Shown: in pieces, positions 36,391 to 61,870 of the stretch
Layout: each line of letters begins with the position of its first letter
How positions within the stretch are numbered: the stretch's first letter is position 1
From: Pomacea canaliculata
Lineage: Eukaryota > Mollusca > Gastropoda > Architaenioglossa > Ampullariidae
Length of the DNA stretch: 64,000 nt
Assembly: GCF_003073045.1 (NCBI RefSeq)
Contig: NC_037590.1
Span: 21,354,449 to 21,418,448, forward strand
Direction of reading: 5' to 3'
Translations under genes and position numbers: made by a program
The notes under the pieces: model-generated
Databases searched by the model: none
Seen by the model: only the letters and a program-made list of their open reading frames with translations
What the model was told of the DNA's origin: nothing

Positions 36391-36833
36391 ACACTCCCTC
36401 CTTCCGGGGGGAAAAATTGTGCCTGCTTAAGGCCACTAATTTTTCAAAAATACAAATCCATACATATAACATGACGTCTGGAAATGAATTAGCATTAGTT
36501 CAATTAAAAATCCAAAAACAGCTTGGTAAAATCATTACACTAAGATCTGTTCTTAAATGAATAAAGCCACCAGTATACAATTACAGCAATTGAACATTAT
36601 TAAAAAGAAAAAAAGTTTAACTTTTACCACAAAACCAATCACCCAAACACCTCAAAAAAAGATGCGTGTTGCAAAGACTAACTCTACATAGAACCATACT
36701 CCTCTCGATAAAAAGTGTTGCGTTTTACCAGCGTGTTCAGCAATCTGGTTTCGTGCAGTAGCATGCACTTTCTCAACCAATTGCTACCACTGCGGCTTTT
36801 AACCCACCTTCAAGCCGGGTTTCACATAGGGGT

Positions 36834-36933
36834 NNNNNNNNNNNNNNNNNNNNNNNNNNNNNNNNNNNNNNNNNNNNNNNNNNNNNNNNNNNNNNNNNNN
36901 NNNNNNNNNNNNNNNNNNNNNNNNNNNNNNNNN
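36834..36933. other. Assembly gap, exactly 100 N
   Basis: A 100-N run, the conventional placeholder for a gap of unknown length. Translations across it are meaningless. The flanks duplicate each other, so the gap may be negative (overlapping contig ends). Confidence 0.99.
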
Positions 36934-36954
36934 CGATTTCTTCGGGCGAATTCC

Positions 36955-49022: not shown

Positions 49023-49557
49023 TCAGTGTATCATGCTCTGTCCTGTAAGACTGGCCTGTGCAAGCATGTGGATGGCATTGAGATCTGCTTCTGTCAAGGC
49101 AGAGGGATCTCCAGTCAGACACTCCACTTCATACTGCACAGGTTCATGTTGCAAAAGAATTTCTTGTCCATGTGCAGAATGCACCAGCTGTATTGGCTGT
49201 CCATCGGCTGACACTGTCACTGACACTGGGCCATGAGCGCTTGCCACGCTCATGATCCGTGCAGCATGTGGCGGATGAATGTTATGATGCACAGCTTGCA
49301 GATGTTGAGAAACAGATCCTCCAACAGGCAGGTGTATAGCTGCACGAGTTGGAGTGTGAGTCAGGATGTGTGCAGTTGTGATGGCTTGTGCACCTGCGTG
49401 ATTAGGAGTCTGGAATGAGTCCAAGCTGGAAACTGTATGCTCACTGAGACGGGAGGTTGCCTGCTGGGACTCAACATCTGTCCAGTGCACAATGTTGCGG
49501 GGCAGTGTCATCCGTGCCTGTAGACATGATCACCGTGGTAACACTAACTTGGTCTTT

Positions 49558-49588
<31 letters not shown>

Positions 49589-49590
49589 TG
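49023..49590 (-). other. PolyQ and conserved-looking C-terminal tail
   Basis: After finger 6 comes KPKKRTPKP and a CAG run encoding 11 Gln (49558-49590). A frame change at 49505-49525 then leads into a 160-codon tail (His/Ser/Thr/Val-rich; SVTVSADGQPIQLVHSAHG, ALTEADLNAIHMLAQASL) ending at TGA 49023-49025. The tail's length, rich composition and lack of stops show it is coding in the second frame. Confidence 0.75.
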
Positions 49591-52500
49591 TGGCTTGGGT
49601 GTTCTTTTCTTTGGTTTTATCTTCTCTGTCTCGGGGTTCCACTCTGCATGGCTGGTTAGGTGGGAGTTGAGATATTCTTTGCGAAAGAAACTCTTGCTGC
49701 AGTATTGGCACTGGTATTTCCTTATACCTGTGTGAGTCTGCTCGTGCCTTTTTAAACTCCCTGAAACCACGAATGATTAGTTTCACAATTATTCCTGCAA
49801 AATTTTATTTGCTCAGCATTTCCTAGGAAATGTGCTACAAAATACTCCCACTTCAAAAAAAAAAGAAAAAACCAACAAAAAAAAAAAGACCCCAAAAAAC
49901 CTCACAGGTCTTTCGTGATTCTAGGACAAACTATGCGTATCAGGAAGGTGAAATTTCTATTGGTGCTGGAATTAATGAACCAGGAGCTGAACACTTACTT
50001 GCTGCAGTGAACATTTTTCCACACTGATTGCACATAAAGACCTTGGGCATGGTTGGGTGCTTAAATTCCTTATGCCGATTGAGACGGTGTTGGTAGTAAA
50101 TGTGCGCCCACATGTGTCACATGATACTGGAGTTCCTCGGCCAGTCGCATGAGCTTTCAGGTGGTAACGCAGAGAAGCACTACGGAAGAAGTCTCGGCCA
50201 CACTGGTTGCATCTGACAAACACAGCAGAAAGGTAATAATACTGACCTATGCTTAAGAACATCTATATTTATAGAAAACTAAGGTACATTTGAAATTCTG
50301 AAGGTACAGCCTAACCTTTTATCATGACACTCCTCATTCCAAATGTGTGATTAAACAAAAAAGTAGAAATATTACACCATTTCCATTCTGCTCAATATTC
50401 TCAAGCATTCAGGGACCAGACTGCTTAATTAGCCATTTGGTTAATGAAATAGCACGCCATAAAGCTGAGCCCTAGGGTGTAACTGTAAAGTAAATGTATT
50501 TGCACTTTAAAGTGCCAGGACACTCACAAGTATGGCCTTATGCCTGTATGCTTGCGCATGTGAATGCGCTGGCTCTTGCGGTTGGAGAAGGACTTGCTAC
50601 AGATGTTACAGCTGAAAGGCTTGATGCCTGTGTGCTTGTACAGATGAACTGTAACAAAGCATTTATGGTAAGACACAAACTTCTTTGGGATATAAAAAGC
50701 GACATCTAAAAAAAAAGTCTTTTAGTGCACATTTCCTGACCTAGAAATGGATGCTGCAGTCTTCATTTGCTTTGTCATCTAACTAACAATGCCATTAACA
50801 GCCACTCTTTGTATATTTGTACATTTTATGATAACTAACTTTAAAACTGTTTCACAAATTCAATATGCAGACAAGCAAATGGTAATCAATGGATCGCAAG
50901 TACAAAAGCTTCCCACAGATTTGTGACATACTATCTAGGTAAGCACATCTGGGATCTGGCACACAATGCTATGAGTGACCAAGATCAGCGATGGTTGGGA
51001 GCAAGCACTTCTGGCAATATAAAACATTCTGTGTTATATGCAAACTTTTCATAGCCTGTGGGAAATATAAGAGCATAATATGCTGCACACTCTTCTGTAA
51101 ATTAAGAGACCAATACATTGCTTCTCATCCATTAATCATTTTACTTTGACCACCACTGTCTCCTGCTGGTCCACTTACTTTTAAAGGCAACATCTCCCTT
51201 GACATTACGGCCACAATGGTCACACTTATGCCTGGTTTTTGCTTTCCTGTTGGACACTTGTGAAAATGCTGCTGCTGCTGCTGCTGTTGAGTTCCATGAA
51301 GATGCTGGAGATGCCTGAGTCTTTTCAGTCCTGTCTTTTCCTTTGTCCTTCTTGTTTTGCAATCCTCCCATCTTATCTGAAAACAATAAGCGCAATTAAA
51401 AGTTACCTTTTTCAGGAATTAATGGATTTTTTCCACTTACCTCTACTACTGTTCAATTCTTCTTTTAAAAGGAAATCAACAATCCAAATTTTTAAAAATC
51501 CAAATGCCAAAGATATTAATAGAACATGCAGTTCAAATAAATGATACTTTTCCCCAGATTGACATACTTAAAAATTCTCTCCTTCTTACCTACAATAGCA
51601 GCAACAGCTTTCCCAACTGTCTCATCTTCACGTTTGCTGGCAGAAGAAGCAGGAGGTTCTGTGGTAACACATACTTCCTCTCTGTTTTGAGGAGATTTGT
51701 CAGTTTTGCTGTTTGCCCTGCCAATGTTCTTTGGGTCATCCAAAGGTTCTCCTGAATTGTCTGTCATCTCTGTTTGCTGATTTTCTTTCCCTAAAAATGT
51801 TAATATATTAGTCACAGCCATGCTACACCAACTGGTAAACTCAACATCCTAGACATCAACTTCAGCTTGCTGTTTTAGGCAAAAGACAGTTAACCTCAAG
51901 TGTTACTCAGGCTTAACACTGCACCTGTGGTCTGATCAGGTTACAGAAAAATGATCAGGGCTAACAGTTTATATGTAAAACTCCAAACCCAACAGAAAAT
52001 CATTTTTAATTTTCCAAGTTTGAATACTGTTTGGGGTCATGTCAAAGAAGCTAAGACATAGTGCAAAACTATTGTAAGAAAGAGATAAGAAAAATGGATG
52101 ACAAAAAACTGCTATTCCATATGACGTTAATACACATCCTTGTTACTTATTTACATGAGGAATCTATCTTTGGCAATCCATACTTGTGATATCTGCTGTG
52201 GTAATTCAGCAATATGTCTATCAACACCATCATAGCTTCAAGATCACAAAGTGTTGTGCTTCCATTATTGTTTTAAATGAACCAAATACATGATTTACAA
52301 TTTCTTTACCCAGCTGTTTTTTTTAGGCATTTTCTAGCTTTTTTTTTCTAACACTCAGTAGAGATCAACAAACACTTATATGTTGTTGTATGATAATGGT
52401 ACCATAGCATATCTATGCCATGGAAACATTAAAACATATGCATTAATGAGCTCTGATTCATTGGCATTATAAAAGGGTAGAAATTTAAAAACAAAATTAA

Positions 52501-55500
52501 ACTACTCATGTTCTGAGAATATGAAATTGCTTAATACTCCTCTTGTATTGAGGTCTGTTGTAACTGGGAGGAAAAACACTGCTGATATACAAAGACATTT
52601 CTAAAGTACTGATAGCAAAACACTAAAGATATTATTTTCCTACCTGAATTACTAACAATTTTGGAATAGACACATTCTGGAATCTGCAAAGCAAAGAACA
52701 AAATAAGTAAATAAAGGAGTATATTAAATACACTAAATTAATATCTAATTATGAGTTTCACAGATTCAAGCAAGTTTACTGTATACTTCAGTTACATCTG
52801 TTTAAAAATATGCTAAAAAAATTGCCATGCTCTTCATTACTAGAACAATTCTCAAATATCTATGCACATGCTACATAGCAGCACAAAAATAAAGCAACAG
52901 CACCATACCCCTTGTCTGAAGTATCTGCAGAATTTTTCCACTCGTTCTTGTATCAAAGGGTTGCGATGTTTGACAGGTGCAACAGCAACTGAATCAGCCA
53001 TACAGCAAGTACCCATATAAAGTAAAACATCATAGGTCATGCCACACCAAAAGAAGTTTCTCCGCAGCTTGGCCTGAGTATCTTGCTGGCTAAGATGGTT
53101 TTCTTCCTCTTGTTAGTTTAAACAAACAAAAATGAAATTTTTATCGTAAATTATATTTCTTTCCGACTGACCAGATGACATGACCATTGGAGATAAGCTA
53201 CATTTGCTCTTTAACTATCAAAAGTTGACTTCCTAATGGTGAGCTATCACTTGTCGGGCAGGTGGGATGCTCCACTGGTCAGGTAAGAAACAGACCTGAG
53301 AATGAGACAGCTAACAAACTGACACCAAAGCCAGGACCAAGAGGTTCTACCTGCAGCATGCACACCTGTAACCAGAAAATATCCATCCACCTCTGAATGT
53401 TGTATCTCACAAGCTGTGATACTTGGTCTTCAGCATCACCCATCGCCTGTCTCCAGAACTGCAGCAATTCAAACATGACCTTGGGAAAGAAGGTCAGCTG
53501 CAAAATTTGTCCCATCAAGTGTCGGCACTTCTACTCTAATGAGCTATGGACAAAAGAGAAGGCTTCCATCCAAATTATCAATGCCCAGGTCATAGGCAAA
53601 CAGACCCAGATACTGCAAGTAAGAAAGCTCATCCCTAGCTGAATAAAACCGTAAGAGGGCTGGTGATCTGACTTGTGGGCATTGATCAACCAACCTACAT
53701 CTTTAAGAATAAAGAGACAAGTATCTTGGTTATGACAGAGAAAGTTCTAGAGCCATTTAAAGCTAGTTACATTTGCACCAGGCAACGAGAATTGCCAATT
53801 TTCAGGCACACAGCAAGAAAAGTCTGCACACCAGGCATTTTCTAGCTCACAGGGAATCAATTTTAAATGGTTAACAAGTGAATGTTGCTTATTTACTTCC
53901 GATGGTTTGTCAAAGGTCAAGGAAGAAACAAATAGCTGACTGAAATCTATTTTTCTAAAATTGCTTAACTAGTTTTTATTAGCTGAATAACAATGGATAT
54001 ATGGAAATTGAAGCTTAACTTTTTCTTCTTTACTTTTTTTGACAGATCAAGTATCCATTCACTTCTGTAATAATAAAGGCATAAGTCTGAAACCTATAAC
54101 CTTCTGCCCCTAAAATCAAGTACAATAACCAGAAAGCCACAAAGTCCTTCCAGTTACATGCTAGATGCCATGTGAAGAAATAGTTAATAACTGGCATTGA
54201 GAAGGGTGTATTAATAAGCTGCACTACAGAAATATTAATCTATGCTTTACTCCTCACGAGTCATTGGAGACATTTATGCCTGGAACTCGAGTATATTGTG
54301 TTCAAACACCTGCGAACGAAAAATTAAGAAACCATAAATCAAACTCAATTTTAAAGAGCACTTCTTACAGTATTCTGCATCAAATCATTCACAAATTTGT
54401 TACCAATATGAGCAGTTTTGATAGCCTCCTGCCGGAGTTTCTCAGTTAAAAGAATCTGACGTGGTTCAGCATTGGGCTTGGACAGGGGTTTGTAATACAA
54501 TGACCCATTGATAATGCAATAGGACTTGGCCTGATGCCGAATCTGCTCCTGCTGCTGCTTGGCTAAGGAAGCTGGGAAGGTGCCATCGGTCAAAAACTGA
54601 ATCAAGTCGCTATAGCTATTCTCCTCCTCCTCATCCTGGAAGATGAAGACAAGCTTGAAGTCAGTGTACAGGAGAATATGGGAAGTAAAATTATACATAA
54701 AAATAAAAGTCGCTAATAAACAAATCAGAAAAATCTATAGACGACCATTATTAAGTGTAATTCAACTTGAGATGTGAGTTTAATTGTGCACATTGTTACA
54801 AACCTTTTTTATTTTAAACATTTGGATAGAAAGAAAGGAGAAGGTGGGTGGATGGCAAGTGATTTGCAGGGGGATGCATGGGTGTGAACATCTCATGATG
54901 ACTGCTTGTCTCTGCTGTAACTGCATCATTGAGAGATTATACATGTATAAACCGTGATTGTTAGAGCTGAGGCCATTCACTTATTCCCTTTTGCTGTTAT
55001 TTGAGGTTATTCATTTCTGCAGTAGACTTGCATTCTTCACTTTGTATGCAGTAAACAACTAAATGCAAATTAAAAAATAGGTATATTTTGATGAGTAGTA
55101 CCATAAAATTGGAACCTGAATTATTGTCAGAACAATTCTTTTCTGTCAAGGCTTTTCTTTCTATGTTTCTATGTCTGTTGGTGTGTCAGAACTTGCTGAG
55201 GGTAGGAAGCATTCAGGATAAAGATTGTTGCCAGTGTTCTTTTATATTGGAGGTCTGGGTCTGACGGAGAGGGTTTCAAAGAGGATATTCAAATAGACTG
55301 TAATGCAAGATTTTGTTTAATGGGGGTGAGGGGGATATAATTTTAATACATCTTAATGTACATCTGTAGATTAATCATTTTGTTGTTTGCTGAATAATTC
55401 CTGATATTATATTTCTTTAAATCAGCTTCTGATATATCTTCTCTAAAAGAAACTGCAGAGTGTGTGGTGTGTGAAACACCCTTATATTCTAATGTTCATT

Positions 55501-58500
55501 TACACATTTTTTTTTCAACCAGCTTTATCCATTCAAGATGACAATTTGTATGGATATACTGAACAAACAACATTCTCTGCGCATTAATACTTTATATACA
55601 TATTTTTATATTTCTTTAAACAGATTAAACTGAGAATATGATCACTGTTGTGAAGCATTTACTGCCAATCAGTTGTACATAGACTGTAACAATTCCTCCA
55701 AGCAAGAATGTAAAATTTAATTTCTATTTACCTCTGACATGTGAAAATCATTGTCATCAATATAAATGCCACCCAAAGACAGGACTTTTAACTTGCTTGA
55801 GGCGCGAAACGCTGCTTTGTTGCGCCGAGGGTTGTCACAGACACATTCTGGGCAGGCATGGATATAAGCATCCAAGTCAAGGCTCATGCCTTTCCAAAAC
55901 ATTCATGTCCAAAAGGTGTTTCAGCATTCTGACACGACCCACATGATCTTCTGTAAACAAAAACTGAAAATACTAAATGTTACGACTTACCTTAAAACTT
56001 GAGATGACTTGAGAGGTTTATGGATGAAACTTTTTAGGTTATGGCAAGATTACTTTGCATTAAGCCTTTTTCTTCTTAGATTTAGAAAGCACATTCAGTT
56101 TACTGCACTATCAATCATGCATGTCAAGTACATTTTAAATGAACTATTCTAAATTTCAATTTGATAAACAAAAACACATGCACTGTTATCAGTAACTGTA
56201 CCTATGATTAAGACTGCCAATGCCCATGTTTATTAAGATAGATTATGCATGTTGAAGCATACACAGAGTGCTTTTTATCCAAAAACGTTAGTTAAGCAGA
56301 CATTAAATTCCAGAAAGGGGATAACTTGTGATCATGTACTACTTGCAGCCTATGTAAAGATCTCGCTTAAAAAAGAATGTACATAAAAACAACCACACGA
56401 AGTACTTAAAAGGATCACAAAACCTACAGATCTATTCACCTTTTCCAAGCCTGGTTTGGTTGTGTGAAGTAGGCATGAAGATTAAAAGAACCCAACCGTG
56501 GAGATTTCTTACAATATATTCCTAGTTCTTAATGATTTTAAAATTAAGCATTAATTCTTAAAAGGAAGGAAAGAGTGTCTGTACCTCCTCTGACATGTGC
56601 CTTTCTCAAAAGACCAAATCGCGCCTTCTCCTTGGTGATGATAAGACGACCTGTAGCTTTCCCAACAAGACCATAAAGTTTTCCTTCCTTCAAGGCAAGG
56701 GTTTCTCCGAGCCGCCTAATGGCACGCTTAAAGTCGACGGTTACATGTGGAGGATAAGTTCCTTGCTCCTTGTAGCATTTGATTACTAAGTAGTAGGTAT
56801 CCAAATCCAGCTGTTTATTATATGATAAAAAAAAATTTAATGGGACTTTTACTTCCAGTCTTGACTATGTTGTAACATTTCTTCTTTTTTTGGTTTTGCG
56901 GGACAGGAATTGGAGGAAGGAGGCACAAAGAAATATACATACAGAAAATCAAAATTTTAAATTATATTTTGCAATTTAAAATAGTGTATCTAGACAAAGT
57001 ATAAGTAACATGTGAACTTGAATTCATTCTTCAAAGCAAATCAAAATTGAAACCCAAAGTTGTTGCAAGAATACAAAATAGCATTACTTCCTAGTCTGTC
57101 CTGAATTTTTGATATAAATTTTTAATTTCTTTTAATGGACTGTTCTAGATTAAAACTGTTAAGCATGATTTTATTTATGAAATTATAAAGGGCTGCACTA
57201 AAATGACAACTCTGATCAACCACTGTCATTGTTGCCATTGCTGCCAGCATGCACTACCATACACATAGCATAGAATCTATAGTTTTAGCCTCTTTCCCAA
57301 TAGAAGACACTGATGTTTATGAATGTTGCAAATAGCACATAATTACTTGTACACTTTAGTGAATCAGCATCCTGCAGTGCACCCATGCTGTTTATCTAAA
57401 ACTAATTTTGAATTTGAGCTAGCTTTTATTTAAGCCTTTTATTTATGTAACCATTATCACATTTGCTATGTGCTTAACCTTTCATCAAATTCACATTCCC
57501 TGCTTTGCCAGGTAAAGAAAAAAAATATACCTGTTCAACCGAGTTAATCAAGCCATCAGATGGAGATTCTTTGCACTCGACAGCTACAGATGCTTTGGAT
57601 CCCTCCACGCGCACTTTTGGAGGTCTACCTCGTTTGCGTTTTTCCGGCAGTGCTGAAGTATTTAAGACACGGCAATCATCTGACTGTGAAATAGGTTCTT
57701 CTTTCTTGACCTGCAGTTCAGCTCTGGCTTTGTATGTAAGAGTTCTTTTACGGTTAGAGGAGCGAGTAACCATTGTTGGAGCTGTCTTGACTTTACTTCT
57801 CACTGATGAGTTGCTTCCTGGTTCATATGTTGCATCTGTAACAAATCCCAAGGGTTAACAAACTTATGACTCACATCTGAGGATGCAAATAAATCATATA
57901 AATGTGGACAAAAGCAGGTAAACAAAGATTTTAAGATGGCATGCAGCCAGTTTTTTTTTAAACGTTTAAAATGTGTTCAGTGCCTTGAGTTTTACCATGG
58001 TCTTCTTCGTCACCAAAATCACTGGCATCCTCAAAGTCATCTTCTGTGGCCCCATCATAAACAATATTTTCAGCACTTTCTTTCTTGTTAGCCACTTCTT
58101 CTGTCTCTCCCCTTTTCTTGCTGTTTGGCAGATGGCTGATTCTAATGATAGCAGAATCATCAAAGGTTACCATATCATCTCCTGAGACAGGTAAAGCCTC
58201 TAGTTTTACTGTGGGGAGGAGGTCAAGATTTAAGTCAGATACTTGTGAAGACTGCAGAGCTGCAGAGGTTCTGAGACCCCCATAGGCTGCCATTAGAAGT
58301 TCCACAGTTTGTCTCTCTTGGTCTTCGCTCAGCTGTACTTCTGAGGCACAAGAGCCAACCTCTTTGTGGCTCAGTTTATCTGGAAACCGTGGTTCCCTAG
58401 ATTTAAATGAGAACTCTCATTATCATTGATTCCAACTAAGACTAAGCCAAAGATTAATCATTGTTAATGTTTGGAAATACATGCAATAGAATGGAACTGC

Positions 58501-61500
58501 TCTCTCGTTACAGAATATCCTTAATTAAAATTACTTTCTCTAAAAATTCTGAGCTCTGTAACATTTTTATCAATTCCTGGAAAACAAATTAAATACCTTA
58601 TCGTTAAAGAAAGACATTTTATAATTTATAACAATAAGTTACCTGCCAAATGTCACAAAAGCTGGAGTATAATCAACTTCAGGTGAAAGAGATGTGCGAA
58701 GTGGCATTAAGAATACCTCAAGGCATTTGTCCCACATCTTTGGATAAGACTTGACAAAACGATCCAAACTTTTCTCCACTCTTTTCCAACGTTCATCTAC
58801 CACAAACAAATAATTCTACAACTAAAAGAGTATTTACAGATATTTCTCAGATTAAAAGTAGTCTTCAATTTCTTTGATCTTTAAAGTCAGTGATTTTTTG
58901 ATGATGCCTAGGTTTCCTCTAGCCTTTGTGTGTTCTACATTGTATTTTGTGTGGAGATGTAAAGCACTTTGAGCCTGGTTTCAGGGATATAGTATCATAT
59001 ATTCACTGTTACAGTATTTACAATATTGACTTTTTAGAATCCACATCTGCTGCAATTTTCCAATAAGAATAAATTTTGTTCTTTCACCGTTATCATGCAA
59101 TATGAGATAACATTAAGAGTTTTGAACTAGGTTACAAATTTAATCTTTATGGTTAAAAAAAGTGTACACATCATAAAGGGTAATGTAATGCAATCAGATT
59201 ACTTGGACATATAAGTTTGATGCACAGACTGAGAGAACATATCCACAGTCTGCTTGTCTGTATTACACTCTTTAACACTTTTCTTTATGATTTCATTAAA
59301 AAAAAATATTCAGGTCTCCAACTACTTAAATCAGTTTCATGACCAGCCAGAACACTTACTAAACACACCCCATCATTCCAGCAGATATATAGAATCAATA
59401 TAATGAATGTTATATTTATTTAAATACTGCCAGTAAATGTGTAAGTGACATCAAAGAACTGCTTAAAAATTACAGAATGTGAGAGCCCCAAAAATAATGA
59501 CCTCTAAAAACACAGCAAACCCACTGCTTCACTTCTATAAGGATTGTCTCTGGCATCTTTGTTTAATATAAACCTACCAGCAGAGTTTGCTATTTGTGAA
59601 AGAAATGTTGGAGAGATGCTAGCCAATTCAAGATCCTGCATATTAATGTAAAGATATATATCCTTTGTAGTCCGATTCTGTTGCAAGCACACCTTGTCCA
59701 TGACACCATATCTGAAAACATTTAAACAATGTTACAATAAACAGAATGATAGGTACTCTTAACACTGCCTTTTCTTCTGTGCCATTATTCCATGTGAATA
59801 TTAACATATTTTCTACCTTTTCCACAGGTATTAATTTTGCATGACAGCAACAGTCCATGCTATGCCCCAAATATTCACAAAGCCTTTATTTAGGATATTT
59901 ACCAATGATTTGCACATTATGTTTTAGCACTGTGCATACTTGACAAGCAAAAGTGTCAGCAAACACAAACACAAATTCTGTAACAAATGTTGTCCAACAT
60001 TTTCTGCAAACTGTTCTTGATTTTGGATGGGTCTGCTCTTGAAAATACGTACACACTTTAGGAGAAAATCAGATCCATACAACTATAAATTTAGCCAAAT
60101 TATTCTGTGATATCTTTAATATACCTCCACTACCTGCATATGAGATTGAGTATGAAATGTGTGAGCGTAGCTGAAGAAATCGTCTCAATCACGGTGGCCT
60201 CAGGAAACTGGGAAAAACTGTCCAGAGCAACAGCCACATAAACCTGCTTCCTTCCAGTAGCATAGGGTCCAAATACCTGGATCTCAACCTGGATAAAAAA
60301 AGGTGATGATGCAAGTTACAAACCCAAATTTTATGATTACCACACTTTTTACAAATTAATTTTAATAAGAAGACTCTAACATGTTATCAGAAGAATACCA
60401 CCTTCAGCAAACAAAATGATTATTCAAATAAACTGTTTGCTTTGATTCTTTGAAATTTAATTCTGTTGCAAACATCCACTAAATAAATCTCTTGTCTTTC
60501 TGGCATTTTATTACTTTCTGCTTTTATAGTTTCAGTCTTATCAAAGAATCAATAATGATTAAGTAATTAAGATAAGCTGTACAGCAACAAATTGCATATA
60601 AATTTACTTATCAAAAAGAAAAAATTACAGCTAATGTGAAAATATTACAATATTTATTGAAGAAATAAACATTAATTTCAAGATACCTTTTGCCAGAAGT
60701 GATTTGTGGTCTCCGGTGACACAAACAAAACATCCATTTCAGTTGTCATCTCCTGTTCTTCTCCCAATTGATTGTCATAGCTCCCATGTTTGGCAAAGTG
60801 ACCCATGGCGGCACTAGGTCCCCGCACACCACGTGAGAGACAGTCAGTACACTTGTGGAGAATTTTGCGCACCAAATTAATGATACCCACCCAATAGTAT
60901 TCTGAAGATAAACGCTCTACAGTTTTCTCCATACCATAGTGTGTACCTGTGGAAATAGTTCCAAATATTTATGTTATATTTAGATATTGTAAAATGTGAT
61001 CATTAACATGAAAGTTTTCCTTATTAAAACTATGTATAAATAACCTAATGTTAGCTAGTCAGTACTTCTGGCTATCTCTTTTTTTTCTATTTTGTACTCA
61101 GCAAATAAATTATTTAAAGTTAATCTCTCAATATTATATAGTAACTGCATGGATATTCCATTGCATAAATAATTTAAATCTGTGTAGATATTGTGAATAG
61201 ACAAGTTTTAGTAACTGTTTTATTCACACAAAGTTAGGCATAGGGAATGAGTTTTCAATTCTGAAACTTCAATACCGCTTTGGAGGGATCGAGACACATT
61301 AGTGTTTGTATCGTTTTTAACTTTCATAAACAACTGACATACATAACCAGTAAAATCTCCTGACTGAATTCCATTTAAAATTCACACACGGTCCTGTAAC
61401 AATGTTTTATTTACAATTTATTGCAACATACTTTTAAGGATTTGTAATGAAATAAACTAAGGGGAACATTTATTTTGGGGGGGACCACAAATTCGGCCAA

Positions 61501-61870
61501 GATAGCACATCAGTGCGCGACCGGTGTAACCCAGCTTTGACCTACCGTCATCCCCAATGTGGCACTTCATTACTGCTTCATGCTTTTCTTCGTCTGTGCA
61601 GCAGCACTTTCTGAGAATCTGTGTATGATCTGATTCATTTTCTGGAGTTTTTGTTGTTTCTTCGTCACCCTGAATGTTTATGGATCGTTTTGGACGTCCA
61701 CCAGTATAATAAAGCTGTCCATCTATAACTTCAAAGGTCTTAGACCGCTTGCGCACCGCTCGGCGATCCACTTTTTTACAGTCTTTAGGAAATGTGCCAT
61801 ACTGTAAATACTGACGAACAATATTTAAATTGTTACGAGTTTTGCATTCGTTAAAGACCTGCGCTGACAT
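49023..61870 (-). CDS. Triple HHCC-integrase-finger / AT-hook / C2H2 zinc-finger protein (17 exons)
   Basis: Exons in transcript order: 61870-61546, 60946-60687, 60288-60134, 59711-59578, 58796-58643, 58396-57996, 57835-57531, 56810-56585, 55950-55732, 54635-54404, 53108-52909, 52683-52644, 51790-51590, 51376-51179, 50648-50528, 50212-49999, 49760-49023. All junctions are GT-AG and phase-compatible. The ATG at 61870 is the first after an in-frame TAA. The product, about 1,373 residues, reads: HHCC unit 1 with remnant integrase core (~1-343), acidic segment, AT-hook (~545), HHCC unit 2 (~580-726), HHCC unit 3 (~727-870), linker, six C2H2 fingers (~1000-1190), polyQ, and a Ser/Thr/His-rich tail ending SMIH. 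Probably a nuclear DNA- or chromatin-binding regulator. Three indels (55896-55902, 50086-50093, 49505-49525) interrupt conserved sequence and are likely assembly errors. The units resemble vertebrate GIN1, and ZBTB11 combines one such finger with C2H2 fingers; I know no protein with three. Confidence 0.85.
49648..51230 (-). other. Six C2H2 zinc fingers (exons 14-17)
   Basis: Fingers begin CDHCGRN (split by intron 14, completed by HLYKH), CNICSKSF, CNQCGRDF, CDTCGRTF, CNQCGKMF and CQYCSKSF, each with C-x2-C and H-x3-4-H, and TGIKPF / TGIRP linkers of the TGEKP type. Finger 4 is interrupted by a one-base deletion at about 50086-50093, after which HRLNRHKEFKH continues the finger. Classical fingers of this kind usually bind specific DNA. 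Confidence 0.88.
51590..52683 (-). other. Linker exons 12 and 13
   Basis: Exon 12 (40 bases, 52644-52683) is the shortest in the gene. Exon 13 (51590-51790) encodes a polar Ser/Thr/Glu/Lys-rich, disordered-looking segment. Phases fit on both sides (phase 1 introns). No domain is recognised. Confidence 0.65.
52909..54635 (-). other. HHCC unit 3, degenerate (exons 10-11)
   Basis: Exon 10 repeats the lead-in (DGTFPASL, YCIINGSLYYKP, QILLTEKLRQEAI) to the first His (TAHI). Exon 11 gives EENHLSQQD, NFFWCGM and then GTCCMAD: H-x5-H-x29-C-x2-A. The fourth ligand is Ala, so zinc binding would need the adjacent second Cys or be lost. It opens with an acidic DEEEEN run. Confidence 0.78.
55732..56810 (-). 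other. HHCC unit 2 (exons 8-9)
   Basis: Exon 8 repeats the unit lead-in (EQGTYPP, RAIRRLGETLALKEGKLYG, RLIITKEKAR) up to the first His (KAHVRG). Exon 9 supplies DHVG, then FWKGM and ACPEC, giving H-x5-H-x29-C-x2-C with all four ligands present. One extra base at about 55900 breaks the frame between MN and FWKG; removing it restores exactly the 29-residue spacing of unit 1. The lead-in is closer to vertebrate GIN1 in style than units 1 or 3. Confidence 0.8.
57531..57835 (-). other. AT-hook exon (exon 7)
   Basis: Contains KRKRGRPPKVR (57619-57650, residues ~542-552), the canonical RGRP core of an AT-hook that binds the minor groove of AT-rich DNA, preceded by basic RSSNRKR, a likely nuclear localisation signal. 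It lies between HHCC units 1 and 2. Confidence 0.8.
57996..58396 (-). other. Acidic linker exon (exon 6)
   Basis: 133 codons with no known domain. It contains SEDQERQTVELLMAAYGGLR, then a run of Asp/Glu (EDDFEDASDFGDEEDHG) at the exon end. Such acidic stretches are common in transcription factors as interaction or activation segments; the role here is not shown. Confidence 0.7.
58643..61870 (-). other. HHCC unit 1 plus inactivated integrase core (exons 1-5)
   Basis: Exon 1 carries the usual lead-in (YGTFP, then FEVIDGQLYYTG) and the first ligand His104. Exon 2 gives His111, then 29 residues to Cys141 and Cys144 (KCTDC), with YYWVG in between: a complete H-x6-H-x29-C-x2-C finger as in Gypsy integrases. 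Exons 2-5 continue with a recognisable integrase core: WQKVEIQVFGP, VALDSFSQFPEA, YGVMDK and finally WDKCLEVFLMPLRT and VTFGR. The first two catalytic Asp positions are Gln (VEIQVFGP; CLQQN), and the region with the catalytic Glu is shortened, so strand transfer is not expected. The intron-split, LTR-free state shows a domesticated host gene. Confidence 0.8.
58915..59010. repeat. Retroposon 3'-end-like fragment in intron 4 of the zinc-finger gene
   Basis: Contains TGTAAAGCACTTTGAGCC followed by GGATATAGTATCATATA, a motif pair often seen at the 3' ends of L2/CR1-like elements and their SINEs. No other part of an element is recognisable. Confidence 0.3.

Follow-up and report, generated by a model that had tools for sequence, protein, structure and literature searches.

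The stretch analysed here covers 64,000 nucleotides of the genome of the gastropod Pomacea canaliculata (contig NC_037590.1, positions 21,354,449 to 21,418,448; hereafter the window), and its minus strand carries a gene whose predicted product combines three integrase-type H2C2 units, a degenerate integrase core and six C2H2 zinc fingers. Its gene structure, its homology, its predicted fold, the loss of two catalytic aspartates, its presence in a bivalve and its single locus were all computed. Taking origin and mechanism as a whole, it is probably a host gene that derives from an integrase bearing the YPYY motif and that encodes a chromatin regulator of the ZBTB11 type. Domesticated integrases fused to C2H2 fingers are a known kind of protein; the apparently new part is the tripling of the N-terminal module.

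The gene runs from an ATG at 61870 to a stop codon at 49023 in 17 exons. An earlier interpretation based on the letters of the window (the sequence-only reading) had given the same start, end and exon count. All introns display a GT donor and an AG acceptor. The coding sequence (4123 bases) contains three frame breaks and is otherwise devoid of in-frame stops. Neither these breaks nor the degenerate core located between unit 1 and an AT-hook-like stretch had been noticed by the sequence-only reading.

A protein search with residues 1–900 of the model protein returned seven proteins, all belonging to the same family: Batillaria P0001 (59% identity, 97% of the query), Littorina P0002 (54%, 96% of the query), Babylonia P0003, a partial second Batillaria copy (P0004), Haliotis P0005 and P0006, and a second Littorina copy (P0007). 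Later searches added the bivalve Solemya P0008 and Haliotis rubra P0021, giving nine relatives. The closest ones in the protein search are caenogastropods, and alignments covering nearly the whole length, such as that of P0001, support the view that the gene encodes one single protein. The domain order, as read from a partly printed alignment in which P0004 and P0007 are incomplete and lack the full order, is unit 1, core, linker, unit 2, unit 3, linker, six C2H2 fingers and C-terminal motif; this order, whose sharing by other molluscs had been raised as a question, is found both in gastropod predictions and in Solemya. Compared with Batillaria, the folded parts are 67–86% identical and the C-terminal motif 89%, versus 28–45% for linkers and tail; compared with Solemya, these values are 24–50%, 54% and 13–20%, respectively. 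Such conservation of the domains, with divergence of linkers and tail, is the pattern that would be expected under purifying selection on the domains. When P0004 was searched against the P. canaliculata genome (70 of 71 candidates scored), 15 matches were obtained: seven at the window locus and eight weak ones over the core (E 7.7e-7 to 5.6e-4, 21–26% identity). This search found in the Pomacea assembly neither a second locus nor the second copy of Batillaria and Littorina. Besides the second gene copy carried by these two genera, the Babylonia protein groups with the second copies in unit 2.

All three units match the Integrase_H2C2 profile (PF17921) above its cut-off of 25.5 bits: unit 1 with 38.7 bits (E 1.1e-9), unit 2, scanned after joining across a frame break, with 31.9 bits (E 1.4e-7), and unit 3 with 32.7 bits (E 8.3e-8). 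The three units proposed by the sequence-only reading are thus recovered by the profile, units 2 and 3 included. Among the six relatives scanned out of nine, five (P0001, P0002, P0003, P0005 and P0008) carry three such stretches in one protein and P0007 carries two. Furthermore, unit-versus-unit alignments within the window protein, P0001, P0005 and P0008 outscore 300 of 300 shuffles in all 12 comparisons. In most units, a YPYY lead-in (F/Y-P ... Y/F ... Y/F; motif defined in the part of PMC2836005 available) can be seen by eye before the H2C2 residues; unit 3 of Solemya, for instance, departs from it.

The ligands of unit 1, H-x6-H-x29-C-x2-C, form an HX6H X29 CX2C finger near the N-terminus. 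The claim of an integrase-type HHCC finger holds for its type, but unit 1 is not a lone finger, as it is the N-terminal part of an integrase with a dead core after it. The H-to-C spacing, said to be exactly 29 in all three units, is 29 in units 1 and 3 of the window, but unit 2 gives this value only on the assumption that the joining of exon 9 loses nothing. Among the gastropod relatives, unit 2 has a spacing of 30 in six of eight, P0003 and P0007 having a doubled His that gives 29 from the second His and 30 from the aligned first one; the spacing is 28 in Solemya. Likewise, the Cys pair attributed to every unit is a C-x2-C in units 1 and 2, but unit 3 of the window shows CC followed by M-A. 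All four ligands are kept in the 8/8 complete units 1 and in the 10/10 units 2 (window included). The fourth zinc ligand of unit 3 is missing from the eight gastropod sequences that reach this position (the window and seven relatives), all of which keep the CC pair, and is present in Solemya (CVVC). This loss in gastropods and not in Solemya is a natural experiment on the purpose of the unit.

The core spans about residues 192–358, its first few residues being encoded by the end of exon 2, and is predicted to adopt the RNase H-like fold of retroviral-type integrases (rve), as examined on the homologous part of P0004. It reaches 18.2 bits with the rve profile, under the cut-off of 32.6, and matches the integrase of prototype foamy virus (PFV) with an E-value of 2.7e-5 for the whole query. 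In the window, Gln occupies both PFV catalytic Asp positions, which we take to be D128 and D185, and Asp occupies the catalytic Glu position. The first Asp position is a Gln in 6/6 aligned rows and, by eye, the second is not an Asp in any of 9/9. The absence of the catalytic D, D and E argues against an active DDE integrase or transposase.

Of the AT-hook of the sequence-only reading, the RGRPPK stretch of exon 7 stands, but it is weak and was recognized only by eye, in the window and P0001–P0004; it does not occur in Haliotis, Solemya or P0007, and Pfam AT_hook is listed for P0003 alone among the six relatives scanned (E 0.049, below cut-off). The reported lack of a BTB domain agrees with the scans, which detected none at E <= 0.1 in P0001, P0002, P0003, P0005, P0007 and P0008 (six of nine relatives) and none at E <= 10 in pieces 1, 2, 3 and 6 of the window protein, the lists for pieces 4 and 5 comprising 25 families. 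In these scans, a ZBTB layout with a BTB between HHCC and C2H2 fingers is not matched.

The six C2H2 fingers previously counted are present in the window, the fourth being read across a frame break, and in 8/8 relatives whose C-terminus is available; Pfam zf-C2H2 supports the array in the window and the relatives. In C2H2 fingers, the bases are contacted by positions -1, 2, 3 and 6. The letters at these positions are the same in the window, Batillaria, Littorina A, three Haliotis and Solemya for finger 5 (ARSR) and finger 6 (REYS); for finger 2, they are NKSI in all of these but Solemya, which has CKTI. Judging from these letters, the DNA targets of this main lineage may have changed little between clam and snail, at any rate those of fingers 5 and 6. 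The contact letters of fingers 2, 5 and 6 are changed in the second-copy lineage (Babylonia P0003 and Littorina B P0007), which suggests a duplicate that has acquired new DNA targets. The C-terminal motif, 53–89% identical to the eight relatives that reach this region and without any Pfam match at cut-off in piece 6 of the window protein, may be an interaction motif.

In this genome, and with the frame breaks allowed for, each unit corresponds to an exon pair (exons 1-2, 8-9 and 10-11). A phase 1 intron splits the first and second His in all three units and a phase 0 boundary closes each of them; units 2 and 3 begin at phase 0 and unit 1 at the start codon. This shared pattern of intron phases is what duplication of exon pairs leaves behind. 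A tree of 27 units and four Gypsy-like outgroup rows places units 1 (90/78) and units 2 (96/96) in single clades, both including Solemya; it does not resolve unit 3, where the Solemya branch is very long. Grouping the three Solemya units in one clade is rejected (p-AU 0.00016); a sister relationship of Solemya units 2 and 3 (p 0.08) and a single unit 3 clade (p 0.40) are not. From this tree and these tests, and given the taxonomic lineages of Pomacea, Solemya and Haliotis, the three-unit design is most likely older than the bivalve/gastropod split.

Table 1. Position of the parts of the integrase-C2H2 gene in the window
Feature	Positions	Strand	Basis
Exon 1: start codon, YPYY/NED-like unit 1 lead-in YGTFP...KTF...GQLYY, first His	61546..61870	-	lead-in compared by eye with YPYY motif of PMC2836005
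Exon 2: unit 1 second His, YYW-x-G, C-x2-C, then linker	60687..60946	-	Integrase_H2C2 match
Exons 3-5 and start of exon 6: degenerate integrase catalytic core	58340..60288	-	rve profile, PFV integrase match
AT-hook-like KRKRGRPPKVR within exon 7 (57835-57531)	57609..57641	-	seen in translation
Exon 8: unit 2 lead-in and first His	56585..56810	-	phase 0 to phase 1
Exon 9: unit 2 second His, FW-x-G, C-x2-C; frame break near 55900	55732..55950	-	Integrase_H2C2, joined
Exon 10: unit 3 lead-in and first His	54404..54635	-	phase 0 to phase 1
Exon 11: unit 3 second His, FFW-x-G, Cys-Cys, no C-x2-C	52909..53108	-	Integrase_H2C2 match
Exons 12 (52683-52644) and 13 (51790-51590): weakly conserved linker	51590..52683	-	linker 3 identity to relatives 11-38%
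Exons 14-16 and start of exon 17: six C2H2 fingers; frame break near 50090	49640..51376	-	zf-C2H2 profile, finger count
Exon 17, with frame break near 49500	49760-49023	-	gene model
C-terminal conserved motif VQYEVECLT...LTEADLNAIHMLAQAS and stop codon	49023..49139	-	alignment with relatives

Exon 17 also carries a CTG/CAG repeat (window 49558-49590) encoding a run of 11 Gln; the Gln runs of relatives vary in length or are absent. Elsewhere, the window contains a run of N at about 36830-36940, read as X in the open frames.

The closest functional precedent is ZBTB11, a transcriptional repressor of vertebrates. According to the available parts of the papers cited in this comparison, ZBTB11 possesses an N-terminal integrase-type HHCC finger HX6H X29 CX2C (PMC5384227, PMC12062965, PMC11290676), whose HHCC residues are needed for TP53 repression (PMC5384227). 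It shares with the snail protein the position of this finger at the N-terminus (unit 1 in the snail) and the C2H2 array at the C-terminus, but it harbours one HHCC unit, a BTB and 12 C2H2 fingers instead of three units, no BTB found, a dead core and six fingers. Of 828 BTB-integrase-zinc fusions reported, 808 belong to Chordata (PMC12062965). GIN1 and GIN2 of vertebrates were also domesticated from Ginger1-type YPYY-bearing elements and have an HHCC finger, a core and several exons, but GIN1 is reported to retain the residues required for integrase activity (PMC3424704, PMC2836005). Imagin, from malacostracan crustaceans, is Ginger1-derived too, with YPYY, H2C2 and core, loss of DDE and purifying selection; it differs by its single module, its description without a C2H2 array, its reported location in the oocyte cytosol and its crustacean lineage (PMC12863088). 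Yeast Spt10, a transcription activator, has a zinc finger that binds DNA and shows homology to foamy virus integrase (cited in PMC5384227), but is a fungal putative acetyltransferase. The PFV and Ty3 integrases share the N-terminal extension and zinc domains (NED and NTD, in PFV) and the catalytic core fold, but are enzymes of a virus and a retrotransposon. To our knowledge, neither of them has a tripled N-terminal module or a C2H2 array, and we know of only one module and no C2H2 array in GIN1 and GIN2. No paper on such a protein was found among the literature matches listed, which come mostly from open papers; to this extent, the architecture is without prior description, as the sequence-only reading had supposed. 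As far as their main texts were available, a survey of metazoan transcription factors derived from transposable elements contains neither 'H2C2' nor 'C2H2' and describes some CENPB and HTH-Psq factors as bearing an rve signature (PMC10027918), and a survey of fusions with transposable element domains does not contain 'mollus' (PMC12062965).

We rank the ZBTB11-like regulator first. Its source would be a mobile-element integrase of the YPYY-bearing kind, which Ginger1 transposons and part of the Gypsy elements carry. In its N-terminal half, the protein would have retained the integrase N-terminal extension, the zinc domain and the RNase H-like core, while losing the catalytic Asp residues; two further copies of the two-exon N-terminal module would have arisen by duplication within the gene. 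The C2H2 array would pick DNA sites, and the integrase half would pack against partner subunits and duplex DNA, as integrase N-terminal domains do in intasomes. The resulting assembly on chromatin would most likely act, like ZBTB11, in repression; nuclear DNA binding, multimerization and the direction of regulation are what we infer. The repeated units might, as the sequence-only reading proposed, multimerize or read several partners at once. Several points weigh against this interpretation. The window copy has three frame breaks, and all nine relatives are gene predictions rather than sequenced proteins. Scoring the core stretch by itself gives a weak single-sequence PDB match (i-Evalue 0.019). 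The loss of a ligand from unit 3 in gastropods means that one or more of the units may have ceased to be standard zinc domains. The YPYY motif also occurs in some Gypsy integrases, making Ginger1 and YPYY-bearing Gypsy elements both candidate sources. Finally, ZBTB11 rescue survives the removal of either the N-terminus or the C2H2 fingers (available part of PMC5384227).

Two alternatives come next, both unlikely. The protein could be a genome-defence factor whose modules recognize Ginger/Gypsy ends or integrases and whose C2H2 array or assembly silences them. Its integrase origin would suit this role, and the at least 150 Integrase_H2C2 matches of the same genome would provide abundant potential targets; however, the contact letters of fingers 5 and 6, kept from Solemya to the main gastropod lineage and changed in P0003 and P0007, fit fixed host targets better than an arms race. 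Alternatively, and with a similarly low probability, the H2C2 units and the dead core could form a scaffold that binds protein partners, the N-terminal half making no DNA contact. A dead core and a unit 3 retained after losing a ligand are compatible with such a scaffold, whereas the intact ligands of units 1 and 2 argue against it. A bolder proposal, which we regard as rather improbable, is a 'dead intasome' regulator, fixed and self-assembling: the three tandem NED and NTD modules and the dead core would mimic within one chain the multi-subunit contacts holding two DNA ends, and the C2H2 array would aim them at host sites, pairing or looping two DNA segments.

That the window copy is a decaying pseudogene is very improbable, despite three frame breaks in 4123 bases of coding sequence. 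These breaks (net +1 or -2 in exon 9, net -1 in exon 16, net +1 or -2 in exon 17) all lie at or beside short single-base runs, their positions being approximate, and the predicted proteins of relatives stay in frame across them. As a control, an axonemal dynein heavy-chain exon of the window (9.2-10.7 kb) changes frame twice, and its pieces placed side by side align at full length with a dynein axonemal heavy chain 9 entry (E 5.3e-215). Because the breaks adjoin base runs and this exon is likewise broken, those of both genes are taken to be assembly indels. Moreover, the splice sites are intact, stops are lacking outside the breaks, and the folded parts are far closer to Batillaria than linkers and tail are. 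The dynein gene itself (DNAH9/17 type by this exon) lies on the plus strand at about 2.2-17 kb, its wider extent being estimated by eye. Lastly, that separate genes or transposon insertions were wrongly joined, as introns, frame breaks and the predicted status of the relatives might suggest, is barely credible given that predictions from a bivalve and four further gastropod genera show the blocks in the same order, and given the identical intron phases of all units and the lack of any second locus found.

If the ZBTB11-like interpretation is true, this gene would be an old molluscan case of an integrase turned into a zinc-finger regulator, with an architecture unlike those of ZBTB11 and Imagin, its integrase N-terminal module having been multiplied by exon duplication inside the gene. 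As two of its units keep all ligands and one has lost a ligand in gastropods only, it would provide a natural test of the role that integrase N-terminal domains play without catalysis, i.e. binding DNA, each other or partners, a question that also arises for ZBTB11, GIN1 and NYNRIN. More largely, the occurrence of this design in a clam points to domestication of the mobile-element protein before the clam and snail lineages diverged and to its retention in molluscs ever since.

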